Assembly: GCA_002841865.1 (NCBI GenBank)
Contig: PHBD01000008.1
Span: 1-64,000, forward strand
Direction: 5' to 3'
Source of the DNA: Deltaproteobacteria bacterium HGW-Deltaproteobacteria-19
Lineage (GTDB): Bacteria; Desulfobacterota; Syntrophia; Syntrophales; PHBD01
DNA length: 64,000 nucleotides
Part shown: piece after piece, positions 642 to 8,652 of the stretch
How positions within the stretch are numbered: the stretch's first letter is position 1
How the letters are laid out: every line of letters starts with the position of its first letter
Notes under the pieces: generated by a model
Seen by the model: the letters and a program-made list of their open reading frames with translations, nothing else
The model's database searches: none
What the model was told of the DNA's origin: nothing
Program-made: the position numbers and the translations under genes

Positions 642-1145
642 CTAACGAATCTCCGGATCGGCAATCCAGATCTGATTCACTGACGGCTTGGCGGGAGGCG
701 TGGATGCAGGCTTTTGGGCAGGGATCCGTTCCTTGGCCGGGAAGAAGGCCTCCAGCCCCGGCGATGCTGTCCGCTTTTTTCCCTGTCCCCACAGGCAATT
801 CAGGCGCGGATAATTGTCGGGATCGCTGACATGAAGGCAGGACAGCATCATGGCTTCCGGAGCTTCTCCCTGAAAGAGAAGAATGTCGGATTCCCCGACG
901 GAGGTCCTCTCGAAGCGTCCGTGGAAGGTCGTTTCCTTTCCGTCCACGATCCTCAGGAGAACGAGGCCGTCCTCGCCCGCGGAGATCCTTGCGCTGCCCG
1001 TGTATGATTCACCTTCATCGGGCATGCTTCCCACGATGTCGTAATCGCCGGCAAAAAATTCGTAGGGAGGGAGGCTCGACGGCGCGGCGAATGCGGTGAC
1101 CGCCGCAAGGACCAGGAAGAGTGAAGAAAGTATAATATTCCGCAA
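642..1145 (-). CDS. Small exported protein of unknown function
   Basis: A 167-residue protein read from a TTG start (TTG-CGG-AAT), with GAAAGAGAG about seven bases upstream. The first 20 or so residues form a clear signal peptide (IILSSLFLVLAAVTAFA), which supports this start over the longer open frame. The mature protein begins near APSSLPPYEFFAGDYDIVG and has a beta-rich look, with Gly-Asp-Tyr-Asp and repeated polar turns, then a Pro/Lys-rich tail. It has one Cys pair-like arrangement (SCLHV and NCLWG). No family was recognised. The gene follows the CULT-domain gene by 14 bases, so the two are probably co-transcribed. Confidence 0.6.
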   Translation of the reverse strand: MRNIILSSLFLVLAAVTAFAAPSSLPPYEFFAGDYDIVGSMPDEGESYTGSARISAGEDGLVLLRIVDGKETTFHGRFERTSVGESDILLFQGEAPEAMMLSCLHVSDPDNYPRLNCLWGQGKKRTASPGLEAFFPAKERIPAQKPASTPPAKPSVNQIWIADPEIR

Positions 1146-1159
1146 GGCGTTTCTCTCTT

Positions 1160-1618
1160 TCAGTGCGATTGGCTTTGCCGGACAAGATTGTCCAGGATGA
1201 GGCCGAAGAAGCTCTCCGCTCCTGAGTCGTAATGCCATCCCAGGTGGAGCCCGCAACGCCCGCAGCTGCAAAAGCGCCACCGGAATCCGGGAAACCAGGT
1301 GAATGCATGAGTCGGAACGCCGTGTAGAATGCAGTTCCAGGCCTTTGAGAAGCATCCGAGGCGAAAGGTATACCCCGCCGGGTTGTCGAAGGTGTGCTCA
1401 AATCGGCCGTGCCGGTGGATGCCGAAGTCGGCCTCCGTGATCTCGTTTCCGCAGGCTTTGCAGCGCAGAGGGTCCTGTCGTTCTTCTTGGTCTTCCTCTT
1501 CCTCCCGGGATAGAAGCCGGACATCCGCTTCGTCCTCCCCTGACTCTTTCAGGAATTGGAAAATACGCTGTCCCATCGATCCCCCCGGGTCCGGTTGGTC
1601 CGTCCGTTTGCCCTCCAT
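1160..1618 (-). CDS. Bacterial cereblon-like CULT-domain protein
   Basis: A 152-residue protein whose C-terminal 100 residues match the CULT domain, the thalidomide-binding domain of eukaryotic cereblon that also occurs in short bacterial proteins. Two CxxC pairs (C53/C56 and C119/C122) would bind zinc. NP at 79-80 and the TWFPGFRW stretch followed by HLGWHY supply the three cage tryptophans W108, W114 and W128, equivalent to human W380, W386 and W400. Residues 1-50 are acidic and low-complexity. A start at MGQRI, 42 bases downstream, is also possible because it has a GGGGGG ribosome site. The natural ligand of bacterial CULT proteins is not established; binding of cyclic imide-type compounds is known for the family. 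The next gene encodes an exported protein. Confidence 0.85.
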   Translation of the reverse strand: MEGKRTDQPDPGGSMGQRIFQFLKESGEDEADVRLLSREEEEDQEERQDPLRCKACGNEITEADFGIHRHGRFEHTFDNPAGYTFRLGCFSKAWNCILHGVPTHAFTWFPGFRWRFCSCGRCGLHLGWHYDSGAESFFGLILDNLVRQSQSH

Positions 1619-1824: not shown

Positions 1825-1857
1825 GAGGGGGCCGACAAAACTCCCGTCGGCCCCCTC
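1825..1857 (-). terminator. Hairpin terminator after the BKACE operon
   Basis: A perfect 12-bp stem (left arm GAGGGGGCCGAC) with a 9-base loop lies 10 bases beyond the BKACE stop codon. The following run is C-rich with few T residues, so it may act as an mRNA 3' end stabiliser as well as a terminator. Confidence 0.6.
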
Positions 1858-1866
1858 AGGGGGGGA

Positions 1867-2790
1867 TCAGTAATTCACGTTGGCAATACCCTTGAGGCCC
1901 AGGATCTGGCGGGCCTCGTCCGGCGTCGCCGGCTCGATGCCGAGCTCCTTGGTGACCCGGACCATCTTGGCCACCTGCTCGGCGTTGCTCTTCGCCATCC
2001 GGCCCTTCTCCAGCCAGAGGTTGTCCTCCAGGCCCACCCGGCAGTTGCCGCCCAGGAGCAGCGACTGGGTGCAGATGGGAACCTGGGCCCGGCCGGCCAC
2101 GCACACGGAGAACTCGAACTCGCCGATGTTTCGTTTTGCGTGCTCCACGAGGAACATCAGGTTCTCGGGGCTCGCCGAAAGCCCGCCCAGGATGCCCAGG
2201 ACGAACTGGATGTAGACGGGCTTCTTGATGTAGCCGGCCTGGATCAGGAAGGCCACGTTGTTCACCATGCCCGCGTCATAGATCTCGAACTCGGGCTTCG
2301 TGTTGTTTTCGCTGAAGACCGCGCAGTACTCCCGCAGGGTCTTGAAGGTATTGGTGAAGATGAAGTCTTCCGTCATGCCCAGCATGACTTTTTCCCACTC
2401 GTGCTTCCACTCCTTGTAGCGTGTCACCATCGGGAAGAGCCCCCAGTTCATGGACCCGGCGTTGCAGGAGGCCAGCTCGGGCTTGTATGCCGTGACCGGG
2501 GCGACCCGCTGTTCCAGGGTCATGCCGGCTCCGCCGCCGGTGGTGATGCAGACGACGGCGTTGCAGCGGCTCTTGATGCTGGTGATGATTTCCTTCATCA
2601 GGTTGATGTCCGGGGATGGAAGCCCGTTCTCGGGATTTCGGGCGTGGACGTGGACCACCGCTGCCCCCGCCTCGTAGGCCCGGACGGCCTCGTCGGCGAT
2701 CTGCTGGGGTGTAATGGGGAGGTAGTCCGACATGGTGGGGGTATGGATGCTCCCTGTAATAGCGCAGGTGATGACCGCTTTTTCTTTCAT
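1867..2790 (-). CDS. BKACE family 3-keto acid cleavage enzyme (DUF849)
   Basis: A 307-residue TIM-barrel enzyme of the BKACE/Kce family. Members condense a beta-keto acid with acetyl-CoA and release acetoacetate plus a new acyl-CoA. The zinc-binding HVHAR motif is at 47-51, and the conserved 'GGGAGMTLEQR' and 'CVAGRAQVP' segments are present, with a late Glu in VGLEDN. The founding member cleaves 3-keto-5-aminohexanoate in lysine fermentation; others act on dehydrocarnitine or 3-ketoadipate-like acids. The substrate cannot be read from sequence. It is the last gene of an operon with a dehydrogenase able to make a 3-keto acid and a GntP permease, which favours a 3-hydroxy acid as the imported compound. 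Confidence 0.9.
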   Translation of the reverse strand: MKEKAVITCAITGSIHTPTMSDYLPITPQQIADEAVRAYEAGAAVVHVHARNPENGLPSPDINLMKEIITSIKSRCNAVVCITTGGGAGMTLEQRVAPVTAYKPELASCNAGSMNWGLFPMVTRYKEWKHEWEKVMLGMTEDFIFTNTFKTLREYCAVFSENNTKPEFEIYDAGMVNNVAFLIQAGYIKKPVYIQFVLGILGGLSASPENLMFLVEHAKRNIGEFEFSVCVAGRAQVPICTQSLLLGGNCRVGLEDNLWLEKGRMAKSNAEQVAKMVRVTKELGIEPATPDEARQILGLKGIANVNY

Positions 2791-2840
2791 TTTATGATGC
2801 TCCTTTCTGACATGTTCATGCTTTCTGGCGCTTGCCGCCT

Positions 2841-3860
2841 CTACTCCGGCAATTTCGTCAACTGGAAGATGGACAGATTGTCGAATACCGCCTTGTATTT
2901 TCCCTGTTCGATTCCCTTGACGATGGATACGACGGTATCGTTGATCGGGGTCGGAACGCCCGTTTTCCGGCCATTTTCGCAGACAATGCCGTTGATGGCG
3001 TCGATCTCCGTCTTCAGCCCCTTCTCGATGTCCTGGAGCATGCTGGCCTTGAGGAGCCGGTGGGGACCGAAAACCATCTTGTAGATCCCCGCGCGTGCCG
3101 CCATTTCCGCCTGGGTCTGGAAGGCCAGGATGTTCAGGTCCGCCCCCTGGATTTTTTCCAGGGCCACGCCCAGCTTGTGCACGACGGCAATGGTCTCGTT
3201 TCCGATCAGCGCGACGCAGGCTAGGGCTTTTTCATTGTCGAGAACCTCTCCGAACGTGCAGCCCAGGGCGGCGGACATGCCGCTCAGGGTGGCGTTGATG
3301 AGGAGTTTCGACCACCGGATGCCGGGCAGGTTCGTCGTGATCTCCGTAGGGCAGATCTTCTCCAGAATCGCCGCCACGGCCTTGGTCCGATCCCGGATCG
3401 TCCCGTCCAGTTCTCCCACGTCCAGGGTCATCTTGTCCGATTCCGACGTGAGTTCCGACACGCCGGGACGAAGCCAGGTGGCTCCCCAGCCGACGGCGCA
3501 TCCCATGACTTTCTCCCGGCCGACATGGGCCGCCACGGCGTCCTCGGGCACGCCGTTCTGCAGGGTGCACACGATGCTGTCTTTATGCAGATGGGGAACG
3601 AGCGCCTTCAGGGCCGATTCGTTGTACGTCTGTTTGACCAGGTACAGGATGAGGTCGTATTCGCCCGACATCGCATCGGGTGTGATCGCCTTGACGGGAA
3701 CGGTAATGTCCATCTTGCCTGTGATCGTCGCCCCGTTTTTGTTCAAGGCCTCGACGTGTTCCCGGTTCGCATCGATGAGAACGACGTCTCCCCCGTTCTT
3801 TGTAATCAGCGCCCCGGAAATGGTTCCCAGGGACCCTGCTCCCAGTATTGCTACTTTCAT
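2841..3860 (-). CDS. Ketopantoate reductase-family (PanE/ApbA-like) oxidoreductase
   Basis: A 339-residue NAD(P)-dependent reductase. The N-terminal Rossmann motif GAGSLG is at 7-12, QNGV at 101-104, and the catalytic lysine of the family lies in RWSKLLINA (K185). The C-terminal helical domain ends with the typical KTEIDAINGIV and GVPTPIN segments. PanE makes pantoate from ketopantoate, but many paralogues reduce other 2-keto acids. Its place between the 3-hydroxyacid dehydrogenase and the BKACE gene argues for a role in the same organic-acid pathway rather than CoA synthesis. Gaps of 50 and 65 bases to its neighbours fit one transcript. Confidence 0.85.
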   Translation of the reverse strand: MKVAILGAGSLGTISGALITKNGGDVVLIDANREHVEALNKNGATITGKMDITVPVKAITPDAMSGEYDLILYLVKQTYNESALKALVPHLHKDSIVCTLQNGVPEDAVAAHVGREKVMGCAVGWGATWLRPGVSELTSESDKMTLDVGELDGTIRDRTKAVAAILEKICPTEITTNLPGIRWSKLLINATLSGMSAALGCTFGEVLDNEKALACVALIGNETIAVVHKLGVALEKIQGADLNILAFQTQAEMAARAGIYKMVFGPHRLLKASMLQDIEKGLKTEIDAINGIVCENGRKTGVPTPINDTVVSIVKGIEQGKYKAVFDNLSIFQLTKLPE

Positions 3861-3925
3861 GACAAAACCTCTCTATCTCCTGTTTTCGACAGGCATGATT
3901 TTGTGGTGTGGGTTGATCCCTCAAC

Positions 3926-4894
3926 CTACAGTTTTCCGTGGAACCTGAGCAGGGCCAGGAGCCCGTCATCCCGCCAGCGGGCGATTTCCTCGCTGGTCCG
4001 ACCCTGTTCCGGCGGCCGGTTCGCCATTTCCTGGAGTACGCCCTCATGGGCCGCCTCCAACCAGTTTTCCGGCCATTTCTTCCAGTCCGCCATGTCTTCC
4101 CACCACCACTCGACGGTGGGACCGATGTGATGCATGACGCCCTTGAGGCCGAATGGTCCTCCGGCCAGGTGATAGATCATGTTGGGCCCCATGAGCCCGT
4201 AACGGAGACCGGGCCCGAAGGTGACGCACTTGTCCACGTCTTCCACGGAGCACACGCCGCGGACCACCAGGTCCACCGCTTCCCGGTAAAGGGCCACGGA
4301 AAGACGGTTGGCGATGAATCCCAAAGCCTCCTTCCGGAGGACGACGGGCTCCTTGCCGAGGGCCTTGTAAAAGGCGACAGCTGTCTCGACGGCCGCCTCG
4401 GACGTCTTTTCTCCCTTCCCGATCTCCACGAGGGGGATCAGGTGGGGAGGATTGTAGGGATGGGCCCCGAGGCAGCGCTCCGGGTGGGCCGATCCCTTGG
4501 CGATCTCCGTGATCAGGAGACCCGACGTGCTGGAGGCAAAAATCGCCTCCGCCGGGGCATGGCGGTCCACCTCGGCCAGCAGGGCCTGTTTCACTTCGTA
4601 TCGCTCCGGGGACGCCTCCTGGATGAACTGGACGTCCGCCACGGCCTCCGCCAGATCGGTCGTGTATTTGGCGAGACCCATGGCAACGTGCGCCTTGTCC
4701 GCTGTCAGGATGTTCCGTTTCACCAGGAAATCGAAGCCCGCCGCGATCCGGTTCCGGGCGTTCTGCAGGGCCTCTTCGTTGATGTCGAATATGTGGGCGG
4801 GGTAGCCCTTCCACAGGAAATTCAGGGCCCAGCAGGATCCGATCATGCCCCCGCCGCCAAGCACGGCCACTTTCTTGATATCCTTGACGTTCAT
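3926..4894 (-). CDS. 3-hydroxyacyl-CoA/3-hydroxyacid dehydrogenase family protein
   Basis: A 322-residue NAD-dependent dehydrogenase with a glycine-rich Rossmann loop (GGGGMIG, 13-19) and the catalytic segment HPYNPPHLIPLVEI, in which H145 is the probable catalytic histidine. The NPP-x-x-IPLVE form resembles L-gulonate 3-dehydrogenase (lambda-crystallin) and carnitine 3-dehydrogenase more than fatty-acid FadB. The substrate may therefore be a free 3-hydroxy acid. The length fits these short single-unit enzymes. The start has a GCGGAGGAAACC ribosome site. Oxidation here would produce the 3-keto acid needed by the downstream BKACE enzyme. Confidence 0.85.
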   Translation of the reverse strand: MNVKDIKKVAVLGGGGMIGSCWALNFLWKGYPAHIFDINEEALQNARNRIAAGFDFLVKRNILTADKAHVAMGLAKYTTDLAEAVADVQFIQEASPERYEVKQALLAEVDRHAPAEAIFASSTSGLLITEIAKGSAHPERCLGAHPYNPPHLIPLVEIGKGEKTSEAAVETAVAFYKALGKEPVVLRKEALGFIANRLSVALYREAVDLVVRGVCSVEDVDKCVTFGPGLRYGLMGPNMIYHLAGGPFGLKGVMHHIGPTVEWWWEDMADWKKWPENWLEAAHEGVLQEMANRPPEQGRTSEEIARWRDDGLLALLRFHGKL

Positions 4895-4919
4895 GGTTTC
4901 CTCCGCTTCCAGGCGCCTC

Positions 4920-6230
4920 TTAGTAGATCAGGATTCCCAGGGGGATCACGATCAGGAGGGCGATGATTGTCGCCACGATGTGGCCCCACCAGATATGCTT
5001 GTAACCGTTCATGTGGGTCAGACCGGTGACGGCCAGGAAGGTGATGACCACGCCGTTGTGCGGCAGGGCGTCGAAGCAGCCCGCCGACATGGTGGCAACC
5101 CGGTGAATCAGGTCGGGGGAGAGGCCCAGGGCCAGGTACTTCGGCGCCAGGGTCTCGAGGATGATGCCCAGACCGCCCGAAGCGGAACCGGTGATGCCTG
5201 CCATCATGTTCGTGGCGATCGCCAGGGAGACGATGGGATGCATCGGCAGCGTGAGGAGCCAGCCGGCGATGACCTTGAATCCGGCCGTGGCCGCGATGGC
5301 CATTCCGTAACCGACGTCCGCACAGGTGTTCACGATCGGGATAACGGTGTTGACGGCACCCTTGTTCAGGGTCTCCGGGAGGTTCTTGAAGTACTTCCAG
5401 AAGAATACGATGCAGAAGGCGACGCCGCCCAGCAGCGCCCACACGGCGTCGAGTTTGAACGCATTCAGCATGATAACAACGACGATCATGGGAACGATGC
5501 TCAGGAACACGTTGGGAAGCTTTTCCATGGCGACCACTTCGCCGGCGACGACACCGACGCCGCTCGGGGCCACGTAGCCTTCACCGCGTGCCTTGGCTTT
5601 CTTGAGCTGGTATTTGAAATAGAAGACGTTGAAGGCCGCCACCACGATGGCGCCCAGGATGCCCAGCAGGGGGGCGGACATGGTGGACGAGGCCATGTAC
5701 TTCGTAGGCATGATGTTCAGGATCTGGGGAGAACCGGGCATCATGGTCATGGTGATCGAGCCGATGCTGAAGGCATAGGGGATCACGAAGAGGTGCCATG
5801 GAAGGTCCAGTTCCTTGAAGATGGGACGGCCGATGGGGATGAGGGCGAAGATGACGACGAAGAGGCTCACCCCGCCGTAGGTCAGGGCGACGCCGATCAG
5901 GGCGATGGCCATGACGCCGTTCATCGGGTTCCCCCGGCCGACGATCTTCAGGATCCCCTCGGCGATGGCCCGGGCGGCGCCGCTGTCCTCCATGACCTTG
6001 CCGAAGAGGGACCCCATCAGGAAGATGAGGTAGAACTTCCCCGCGTAACTGACAAAGCCCTTCATGTATGGGCCTAACAGGGTGGGAAGAATGTCCAGGC
6101 CGGAAAAGACCGCGACGAAAACGACGGCCAGAGGGGCCAGGATGATGATGTGCCATCCCCGGAGGGCAAAGACAACGATGAATGCCAGGGATAGAACGAT
6201 GCCGATGATGCTGAGGGTACTAGGATCCAT
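4920..6230 (-). CDS. GntP family permease
   Basis: A roughly 436-residue inner-membrane protein with about 12 hydrophobic helices and GntP family features, including MTMMPGSPQILNIMP in the middle and GSASGGLGI late in the protein. GntP permeases import gluconate and other small hydroxy acids by proton symport. Two in-frame ATGs are present. The second (6230) is preferred because AGGAG lies eight bases before it, whereas it is only two bases before the first (6236). It is the first gene of the catabolic set, 127 bases after a two-component regulator on the same strand, with G-tract hairpins between. Confidence 0.85.
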   Translation of the reverse strand: MDPSTLSIIGIVLSLAFIVVFALRGWHIIILAPLAVVFVAVFSGLDILPTLLGPYMKGFVSYAGKFYLIFLMGSLFGKVMEDSGAARAIAEGILKIVGRGNPMNGVMAIALIGVALTYGGVSLFVVIFALIPIGRPIFKELDLPWHLFVIPYAFSIGSITMTMMPGSPQILNIMPTKYMASSTMSAPLLGILGAIVVAAFNVFYFKYQLKKAKARGEGYVAPSGVGVVAGEVVAMEKLPNVFLSIVPMIVVVIMLNAFKLDAVWALLGGVAFCIVFFWKYFKNLPETLNKGAVNTVIPIVNTCADVGYGMAIAATAGFKVIAGWLLTLPMHPIVSLAIATNMMAGITGSASGGLGIILETLAPKYLALGLSPDLIHRVATMSAGCFDALPHNGVVITFLAVTGLTHMNGYKHIWWGHIVATIIALLIVIPLGILIY

Positions 6231-6295
6231 TTCCATCTCTCCTTTCTTTGGATTTCTCTGGCATCCGTTTTAAGAGAGATGGACAGGAAAGAACA

Positions 6296-6332
6296 ATGGG
6301 GGGTGACCCCCATTTCAGGGGGGACGCCCCCC
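6296..6332 (-). other. Twin G/C-tract hairpins between regulator and permease genes
   Basis: Two short hairpins stand side by side: a 7-bp stem ATGGGGG/CCCCCAT (6296-6302 with 6307-6313) and a 6-bp stem GGGGGG/CCCCCC with a 3-base loop (6318-6332). The arms are interchangeable, so other pairings are possible. On the coding strand they follow the response-regulator stop and are trailed by TTGTTCTTT. They could be a weak terminator that lowers read-through into the permease operon, or an operator. Confidence 0.45.
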
Positions 6333-6357
6333 ATTCGGTGGGAATTGGACGGACCGG

Positions 6358-7026
6358 TTATCCTTCCCAGAGGTCCGGGTCGGCAACGCCGATCTTGATG
6401 GCATATTTCAGGAGTTCAAGCCGGTCGTGGATGCCCAGCTTGTTCATGATGCTGGTGCGATGCTTTTCCACGGTCTTGGCACTGACACAGAGAATGTCGG
6501 CGATCCGGGCGGTTGAGTTTCCCTCCACGACGAGGCGGAAGACCTGCTGCTCCCGCTCCGTCAGGAGCTCATAGCCCTTGGGGGCGGGTGTCTTTTCACG
6601 ACTCCGCACGTAGCTGCCGATGACGTCCGCCCGGATCTTGGAGCTGAGAAAGTATTCTCCCCGGTAGGCCGCCCGGATTGCCTCGATGATGTCCGTGCTC
6701 GGCGACGCCTTCAGGACGTAGCCGATGGCACCCGAGGCCAGGGCCTGATGGACGTAGCTTTCCTTGGCGTGCATGGACAGGACGACCATCCGGGCGGACG
6801 GTACGGTTTCCCGGATCAGGCTGATCACGTCCAATCCGCTGAGGCCCGGCATGCCGATGTCCAGCACGATGACGTCGGGACGATTGGATTTTGCCATTTC
6901 CAGGGCCCGGCAGCCGTCCTCGGCCTCTCCGACGACTTCCATGTCCGCCTGCACATTGAGCAGCTGGCGCAGGCCTTCCCGGATGATGGCGTGGTCGTCC
7001 GCGATCAGGATGCGGATTTTTTTCAT
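6358..7026 (-). CDS. NarL/FixJ-type response regulator
   Basis: A 222-residue two-domain regulator. The receiver domain (3-120) has the acidic pair D10/D11 and phospho-acceptor D56 in VIVLDIGMPG. A LuxR-type helix-turn-helix follows (LTEREQQVFRLV to SAKTVEKHR, about 150-215). Its start overlaps the kinase stop by ATGA, so the pair is translationally coupled. It lies just upstream of the GntP-dehydrogenase-BKACE operon on the same strand and is the likely regulator of that operon; this target is inferred from position only. Confidence 0.92.
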   Translation of the reverse strand: MKKIRILIADDHAIIREGLRQLLNVQADMEVVGEAEDGCRALEMAKSNRPDVIVLDIGMPGLSGLDVISLIRETVPSARMVVLSMHAKESYVHQALASGAIGYVLKASPSTDIIEAIRAAYRGEYFLSSKIRADVIGSYVRSREKTPAPKGYELLTEREQQVFRLVVEGNSTARIADILCVSAKTVEKHRTSIMNKLGIHDRLELLKYAIKIGVADPDLWEG

Positions 7027-8528
7027 GTGGCGCCTCCCTCCTCGGGTATCTCCACCCGGACGGTTGTCCCCCGGCCGGGGGCGGAGGTGATATCGATGGT
7101 TCCGCCCAGGGAGGCCACCCGTTCCTGCATGCTCAGGAGGCCGATCCCCTTGGGCATTCCGCCGGGAAGGCCTTCTTCCGCCGTTTCGAATCCAACACCG
7201 TCGTCCCGGATGACAAGGATTGTTTTCGGGTAGCTGTGGGTCAGGAGGATATTTACGCGATTCGCCTGGGCGTGCTTGGCGATGTTGGTCAGGCATTCCT
7301 GAAAAATCCGATACAGAACGATCTCGGAAGCTCCTCCGAGGCGCCGCTTGAATCCGGTTGCCTGGAACTGGATGTCCAGGCGGTCGCGGTGGCTCAGGAA
7401 ATCCTGGATATGCCACTCCAGGGTCGGAATGAGGCCCATGTGATCCAACAGGTCCGGCCTCAGGCGGGCCGTCGTTTTCCGGACCTGGTCGGCCAGCTGT
7501 TCCACCCGGCGGGCAAGCGTCCGGCACCGATCTCTCCTTTCGTCGCCGCCGTCGTCAAAGGATGCCTCCAGCGCCTCCAGGCCGAAATGCAGGGAAGTGA
7601 GGGACTGGCCGAATTCATCGTGCAGATCCGCCGCGAGGCGCCGGCTTTCTTCTTCCATGACATCGATCAGGCGCCGCGACAGGTGATGGATCTTTTCCTC
7701 CGCTTCCTTCCGGCCGGTGATGTCGATGACGATGGCCACAACCGCGGGTTCCCCCTGATAAATGGCGGGGCTGGCCCAGAGCTCGACCCAGATGATCGAA
7801 CCGTCCTTGCGGAGTGCCCGGAAGATGTACTGGGCGGGTGAGAAGGAGATTTTCTGGCGTTTGATCCCCCTCTTTTTCACCATGTCCCGATCGGCCGGAT
7901 GGATCACTTCCCAGAAAGGCATGCCGACGATTTCCTCGGGAGAGTCGTAGCCCAGCATGTCGGCGAGCCGCTGGTTCACATACTGAAAGATCCCATTCTG
8001 GTGAACATTGATCCCGGCGAGGGAGTTGTCCACGACGGTTCGATATTTTTCCTCGGATTCCTGGAGTTTCCGTTCGGCCCGTTTCCTGTCCGTTACGTCC
8101 ACGACAAATCCCTCGTATCCCTCGGGTTCTCCCTGCTTGTTCCGCCGGATTGCCGAGGTGATGTGGACGTCGATGACACTGCCGTCCTTCCGCTGCATAT
8201 CGGTTTCAAATTCCTGGACGGAACCGTGCAGGCCCATCACCTCCTTGAACCGGAGGCGGCTTTTCGGATCCGTATAGAGAGACCGGGTCGAGTCCAGGCC
8301 GATCACCTCTTCCCGGGAATCGTATCCGAGCATGCGGGTGCCGGCGTCGTTGATGTCGAGGATGATCCCGTCGAGGTCGGTCAGGTTGACCATGGCCGGG
8401 GAGTGTTCGAAGAGATGACGGTATTTCCGCTCGGATTCGCGGAGATTCTTCAACTCCCGCCGGCATTCTTGCAGTTTTGTTTCCAGGGCGGCAATCCGCC
8501 GCTCTGTCGACTGATTTGCGGATTTCAT
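7023..8528 (-). CDS. PAS-PAS sensor histidine kinase (NarX/DegS class)
   Basis: A 501-residue kinase with an N-terminal coiled coil (1-35), two PAS domains (about 33-148 and 158-272), a HisKA_3 dimerisation domain with phospho-acceptor H303 in DLHDEFGQ, and a C-terminal HATPase (NIAKHAQAN, DDGVGF, GIGLLSMQERV). There are no transmembrane helices, so it senses a cytoplasmic signal such as a metabolite, redox state or oxygen. The ATG at 8528 is chosen because AAAGGAAAGG precedes it; the longer open frame lacks a ribosome site. Its partner is the overlapping NarL-type regulator. Confidence 0.92.
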   Translation of the reverse strand: MKSANQSTERRIAALETKLQECRRELKNLRESERKYRHLFEHSPAMVNLTDLDGIILDINDAGTRMLGYDSREEVIGLDSTRSLYTDPKSRLRFKEVMGLHGSVQEFETDMQRKDGSVIDVHITSAIRRNKQGEPEGYEGFVVDVTDRKRAERKLQESEEKYRTVVDNSLAGINVHQNGIFQYVNQRLADMLGYDSPEEIVGMPFWEVIHPADRDMVKKRGIKRQKISFSPAQYIFRALRKDGSIIWVELWASPAIYQGEPAVVAIVIDITGRKEAEEKIHHLSRRLIDVMEEESRRLAADLHDEFGQSLTSLHFGLEALEASFDDGGDERRDRCRTLARRVEQLADQVRKTTARLRPDLLDHMGLIPTLEWHIQDFLSHRDRLDIQFQATGFKRRLGGASEIVLYRIFQECLTNIAKHAQANRVNILLTHSYPKTILVIRDDGVGFETAEEGLPGGMPKGIGLLSMQERVASLGGTIDITSAPGRGTTVRVEIPEEGGAT

Positions 8529-8652
8529 GACGGGGGCCTTTCCTTTCAGCCGTTGCCCGGGCAGGGGCCTCATTCGTTCCGAATCTGTCCTTTAAGACGG
8601 CACCATGTACAGTCAAACCGATTTCTGCAAAAGGGGCAAGAAAAAGAAGCTT

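Follow-up and report, generated by a model that had tools for sequence, protein, structure and literature searches.

The question raised by this locus is what a cereblon-like protein of a single domain does in a bacterium. It lies in a window of 64,000 nucleotides, the whole stretch of DNA analysed, from contig PHBD01000008.1 of Deltaproteobacteria bacterium HGW-Deltaproteobacteria-19. Papers of 2014-2015 (PMC4287342, PMC4449219) had already described the CULT family, its mainly delta-proteobacterial single-domain occurrence and the lack of a settled ligand, and the original prediction agreed with both reports in regarding the native ligand of bacterial CULT proteins as unsettled. Translation of positions 1160-1618 on the minus strand yielded a single-domain CULT protein of 152 aa, encoded by a gene present in single copy in its own genome, and the residue numbers previously assigned to it (C53xxC56, C119xxC122, W108, W114, W128 and F106) were all correct. 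The protein was 96% identical to that of a sister species, the one same-genus genome compared. Pairwise comparison of the two genes revealed 8 synonymous and 6 non-synonymous changes over 151 codons, with base changes mostly at third positions, as would be expected of a protein-coding gene under constraint. In the same two-species comparison, residues 1-14 contained 2 substitutions and a 12-nt insertion, and the next 138 residues contained 4 substitutions. Because the changes cluster ahead of M15, the start codon is uncertain, and translation may begin at the ATG at 1576 (138 aa) instead of the ATG at 1618 (152 aa).

Family membership was assessed by sequence and by fold. A phmmer search against PDB sequences retrieved MsCI4 (MGR_0879, cereblon isoform 4 of Magnetospirillum gryphiswaldense) with an E value of 4.5e-26 and the human and chicken cereblons with E values of 5e-11 to 1e-8. 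Among the Pfam profiles, Yippee-Mis18 was the sole match and fell under its cut-off (E 0.0022). An AlphaFold (AF2) model built from 56 bacterial CULTs had core pLDDT values of 96-99, with low confidence for residues 1 to ~45. Foldseek placed this model on thalidomide-bound MsCI4 with an rmsd of ~0.9-1.2 Å and a target TM score of ~0.9, and on human CRBN at ~2 Å and ~30% identity, indicating a beta-tent fold. The two CxxC pairs that would hold one structural zinc, C53/C56 (1451..1462, minus strand) and C119/C122 (1253..1264, minus strand), were invariant in the 56 CULTs, and N79-P80-x-G82 at the tip of the inserted hairpin was kept in 53 to 55 of the 56 sequences. The protein consists of a CULT domain alone, as in MsCI4, with no other family match and an N terminus that is hydrophilic by inspection; neither inspection nor the family profiles revealed a signal peptide or a LON domain. 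It is thus not a cereblon proper, which carries a LON domain and a DDB1-binding connector upstream of CULT: the chain is only 152 aa long and had no LON match. Taken together, the model and the alignment indicate that the protein almost certainly forms a beta-tent core with one Zn(Cys)4 site and a cage of W108, W114 and W128, its base closed by Y130. Assignment to the bacterial cereblon-like CULT domains was therefore borne out by phmmer, the AF2 model and Foldseek, and the structure prediction proposed as a check returned a confident CULT core that superposes on liganded MsCI4.

The ligand pocket was then compared residue by residue. In MsCI4, Phe77 corresponds to human His378, Glu76 to Glu377, and Trp79, Trp85 and Trp99 to Trp380, Trp386 and Trp400; Tyr101 stands where human cereblon has Phe, and residue 77/378 makes its contact through the backbone (PMC8900816). 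In the phmmer alignment, the pocket rim A105-F106-T107-W108 (1295..1306, minus strand) matched E76-F77-S78-W79 of MsCI4 and E377-H378-x-W380 of human cereblon, the second cage residue W114 (1277..1279, minus strand) matched W85 and W386, and W128-H129-Y130 (1229..1237, minus strand) supplied the third cage Trp and the cage-base Tyr, equivalent to W99 and Y101 of MsCI4. F106, A105, W108/W114/W128 and Y130 are thus the window equivalents of the MsCI4 pocket residues. Ten residues were invariant in the 56-sequence alignment, namely both CxxC pairs, the three Trp, F109, G127 and F137. An intact tri-tryptophan cage with both zinc CxxC pairs, as originally predicted, is accordingly supported by the alignment, by this invariance and by the model, which superposes on liganded MsCI4. 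The accompanying statement that only the H378 equivalent is replaced was incomplete, since the conserved Glu (MsCI4 Glu76, human Glu377) is A105 and the human cage-base Phe is Y130. Nor is the His to Phe replacement a notable departure, given that thalidomide-binding MsCI4 itself has Phe77. Among the 56 bacterial CULTs, position 106 was occupied by F in 24, H in 9, W in 8 and Y in 6, position 105 by E in 37 and A in 7, and position 130 by Y in 35 and F in 21. Phe at 106 appears to be the typical bacterial state because it is the commonest residue there and is present in MsCI4; by these counts the change from E to A at 105 is rarer than that from His to Phe at 106.

Human cereblon recognises C-terminal cyclic imides of proteins through the same pocket (PMC11974815). 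Because of this shared cage and its invariance in the 56 CULTs, we tentatively propose, with somewhat less than even confidence in the statement as a whole, that the window protein is a cytosolic single-domain CULT that reads cyclic imides on damaged or cleaved proteins and brings them to a quality-control partner. Following the MsCI4 structures, a cyclic imide or uracil-like ring would enter the cage with its edge, the ring NH and a keto oxygen would pair with backbone atoms of F106 and W108, and the Tyr hydroxyl would add a further bond. The physiological ligand would be a C-terminal succinimide or glutarimide on a damaged or cleaved protein, which the CULT protein would deliver to a partner that may differ between lineages; the tail, with the hydrophobic-basic motif described below, would be the likely docking part. 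In mammals, C-terminal cyclic imides are produced by enzymes of the PCMT class (PMC11974815), and a PCMT homologue is encoded in the window's genome. Its presence carries no weight, since PCMT occurs in 378 of 395 genomes of the phylum and is almost universal there.

To what extent gene neighbourhoods point to a partner was examined across the family. CULT was found in 39 of 395 genomes of the phylum. Of the 155 genomes in the order, 12 gave a CULT hit, including a weak one that was dropped; L059 was left out as a false weak hit. In the phylogenetic tree, the window CULT and the order-level CULTs formed one clade with a support of 0.89, with the divergent L058 apart, and the distribution in the order fits vertical descent with frequent loss. 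No CULT was found on plasmids or viral contigs. The neighbourhood survey took in flanks of at most 8 kb around the CULT genes of ~50 genomes and of five named genomes, ~55 loci in total, with neighbours clustered; the printed neighbourhood table leaves out nine loci without a called CULT, even with CULT genes forced. No gene family qualified as a general CULT neighbour among the ~55 loci. Neighbours were specific to clades or single loci, and comprised the hemC/hemD-cobA region, PTPS, SDR, an alpha/beta hydrolase, an ATE-family transferase and dihydrouridine synthase. The new genomic context that had been proposed for the window gene did not withstand comparison with the sister species and with genomes lacking CULT. 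At L081, L085, L089, L090 and L006 the CULT gene begins where, or close to where, a cobA-hemD fusion gene of a hemC/hemD cluster ends, and the two overlap in several genomes, possibly reflecting translational coupling. At L086 (8087-8863; 1-1077) the CULT gene is followed by an ATE-family gene (aminoacyl-/arginyl-tRNA-protein transferase), with a LonB-like gene ~6.5 kb off.

One clade of CULTs, distant from the window protein, was found beside a protease. It comprised the eight loci L092, L093, L095, L096 and L114-L117, whose CULTs share a GNG-type stretch immediately ahead of the first Cys. Five of the eight (L095, L096, L115, L116 and L117, from G437, G283, G597, G600 and G596, respectively) had CULT in a block with genes for a Lon-like ATP-dependent protease and a bifunctional-nuclease-domain (BFN) protein. 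The protease contains AAA_32, LonB LID, LonC helical and Lon_C domains, indicating a LonB/LonC type. The order was CULT-Lon-BFN in L095, L096 and L116, with 13 bp from the CULT stop to the Lon start in L116, and Lon-BFN-CULT in L115 and L117; in the remaining three loci, fragmented contigs may hide such an adjacency. This Lon subfamily (at least 61% identity) occurred in all eight genomes of the clade. Within the class holding most of the clade, a CULT of this kind was present in 6 of 11 genomes with the Lon and in 0 of 74 without it (Fisher ~1e-6, calculated by hand and ignoring relatedness). Five genomes had Lon-BFN and no detected CULT, and the fetched Lon-BFN stretches likewise lacked CULT. 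The neighbouring Lon-like protease is probably the partner of CULT in this clade. No report of a CULT-Lon gene link was found in the open-access literature covered. Together with the ATE-family gene beside the L086 CULT, these blocks suggest a link to proteolysis, and the clade supports the idea of a protein reader in general. The link is not directly transferable to the window protein, since no relative of the linked Lon was found at E 1e-20 in the window's genus (G000, G001); the window CULT also belongs to a different clade of the tree, and 24 of the 52 CULT-bearing genomes are without the linked Lon.

In the window protein, docking would fall to the N-terminal tail, residues 1-52 up to C53 (1463..1618, minus strand), where pLDDT was mostly below 60 and the AF2 model placed no part of the tail against the core. 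The acidity emphasised in the original prediction is no family feature, because net charge before the first Cys ranged from -9 to +8 across the family. An unaligned EM motif search of 41 tails, with domain-adjacent residues removed and equal starts for data and shuffles, instead returned a hydrophobic-basic motif in which Arg or Lys comes after a pair or trio of hydrophobic residues and Pro often stands two positions further along; its instances include YFLRIPL, HLFRLPS and FFFRIPS as well as QFLKESG of the window protein (residues 21-27; 1538..1558, minus strand). The motif reached a log-likelihood (LL) of 70 versus a shuffle maximum of 57, and 25 of the 41 best matches, ~29-36 residues before the first Cys, fell in one 8-residue window, compared with a mean of 14.5 and a maximum of 19 for shuffled tails. 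On 25 sequences below 55% core identity the LL was 49.5 versus a null maximum of 48.6 and the clustering 14 versus 12. The motif is thus marginal after this reduction and suggestive, and is better supported than acidity as a tail feature. The divergent subgroup of L058, L087 and L118 has its own conserved tail ~25 residues ahead of the first Cys, in which DHLTYL precedes an acidic stretch of IFE type.

A role as a metabolite sensor is a serious rival for the window protein, if on balance an unlikely one: the ligand of the cage would be a free compound, namely uracil, uridine or some other small cyclic imide or lactam, in response to which the protein would regulate a partner, with no protein substrate involved. 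Uracil and uridine are bound by MsCI4 (PMC4287342), and the MsCI4 crystal structures include complexes with deoxyuridine and valerolactam. Furthermore, the sister species (G001) has, directly downstream of CULT, a complete gene (L049:1696-2328, minus strand) for an amidohydrolase of the isochorismatase family with weak similarity to RutB and biuret hydrolase. However, this gene neighbours CULT in no other locus, the window's genome has only distant paralogues of it, and among the surveyed loci no gene of a pyrimidine or imide pathway was a recurrent neighbour of CULT. Very improbable is the idea of an enzyme acting on the bound ring, for example by opening cyclic imides, like the beta-tent relatives MsrB and GFA. 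The fold family includes enzymes (PMC4287342), and hydrolysed compounds were present in MsCI4 crystals (titles 6r0s and 6r0v). H75, nearly invariant (55 of the 56 bacterial CULTs), could also be counted in its favour. Nevertheless, most of the invariant residues serve the structure, the zinc site or the cage, many MsCI4 structures are reported to contain intact ligands, and cyclic imides of the thalidomide-type drug class hydrolyse spontaneously.

The immediate neighbours in the window were also considered. The CULT gene lies 14 bp upstream, on the same strand, of a gene judged to be outside the system (642..1145, minus strand), which encodes an exported protein of 167 aa with a TTG start and a signal-peptide-like N terminus by eye; it had no match in Pfam, NCBIfam or PDB. 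Over CULT and the upstream cleavage-enzyme gene, the corresponding region of the sister species is 94% identical, and at the junction (1124..1157, minus strand) sister-species comparison and Pfam showed that the isochorismatase-family gene separates CULT from the exported-protein gene there. The 14-bp adjacency arose through an insertion or a deletion in either the window's lineage or that of the sister species, and therefore gives no evidence for partnership; homologues of the exported protein also occur in genomes without detected CULT, so that the earlier suggestion of this neighbour as CULT context falls away. The isochorismatase, adjacent in the sister species only, was likewise rejected as a conserved CULT partner. 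Upstream, a gene for a beta-keto acid cleavage enzyme, just over the NCBIfam cut-off for 3,5-dioxohexanoate:acetyl-CoA acetone transferase, lies ~250 bp from CULT on the same strand. It is the last gene of a row (1867-8573, minus strand) that also encodes a PanE-like reductase, a hydroxyacyl-CoA-type dehydrogenase, a GntP-like permease, a response regulator and a PAS histidine kinase, a probable regulated catabolic cluster; carnitine-type metabolism received no support, the dehydrogenase being under the curated cut-offs. A 14-bp GC-rich hairpin (1825..1857, minus strand; z -2.95) follows the cleavage-enzyme gene; it has no T-run and hence was not scored as a terminator, and is the probable transcription end separating CULT from the cluster. 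That CULT is a working partner of the exported protein or of the upstream cleavage enzyme/hydroxyacid dehydrogenase/GntP permease cluster is thus hardly credible, despite the shared strand, the short distances and the upstream adjacency retained in the sister species, given the intervening gene, the CULT-less homologues, the strong hairpin and a last cluster gene that was found beside no CULT outside the genus in the surveyed loci.

A side result of possible importance is the repeated occurrence of a CULT clade beside one Lon-like protease subfamily, so far only in genomes with that Lon. If this link is functional, the role of bacterial CULT would be directly testable by in vitro degradation. 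A broader reading, which we consider improbable, is that bacterial CULTs in general serve ATP-dependent proteolysis as adaptors recognising the cyclic-imide ends of damaged proteins, so that the cereblon function of imide-degron receptor would be older than its use with ubiquitin; the Lon-BFN-CULT blocks would then be its operonic form, and the window protein a free-standing one docking another partner through its tail motif.

Compared with known systems, the window gene encodes a well-behaved homologue and not a new system, because the family and its structures have been on record since 2014-2015. MsCI4 is also a single CULT domain (44% identity, ~1 Å rmsd) and has in common with the window protein the zinc site, the three Trp, Phe at the H378 position and the cage-base Tyr. 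The window protein differs in its longer tail with a motif and in Ala in place of Glu76, whereas the stretch ahead of the first Cys in MsCI4 is no longer than 24 residues, leaving no room for the tail motif at that distance. The delta-proteobacterial single-domain CULTs of group I (Lupas et al. 2015) have the same architecture and share the ten invariant residues, and the window protein differs from them by ordinary divergence only. With the C-terminal domain of human cereblon it shares the tri-Trp cage, the zinc site and the fold, and it differs in having neither a LON domain nor a DDB1-binding region and in carrying Phe for H378, Ala for E377 and Tyr for the cage-base Phe.
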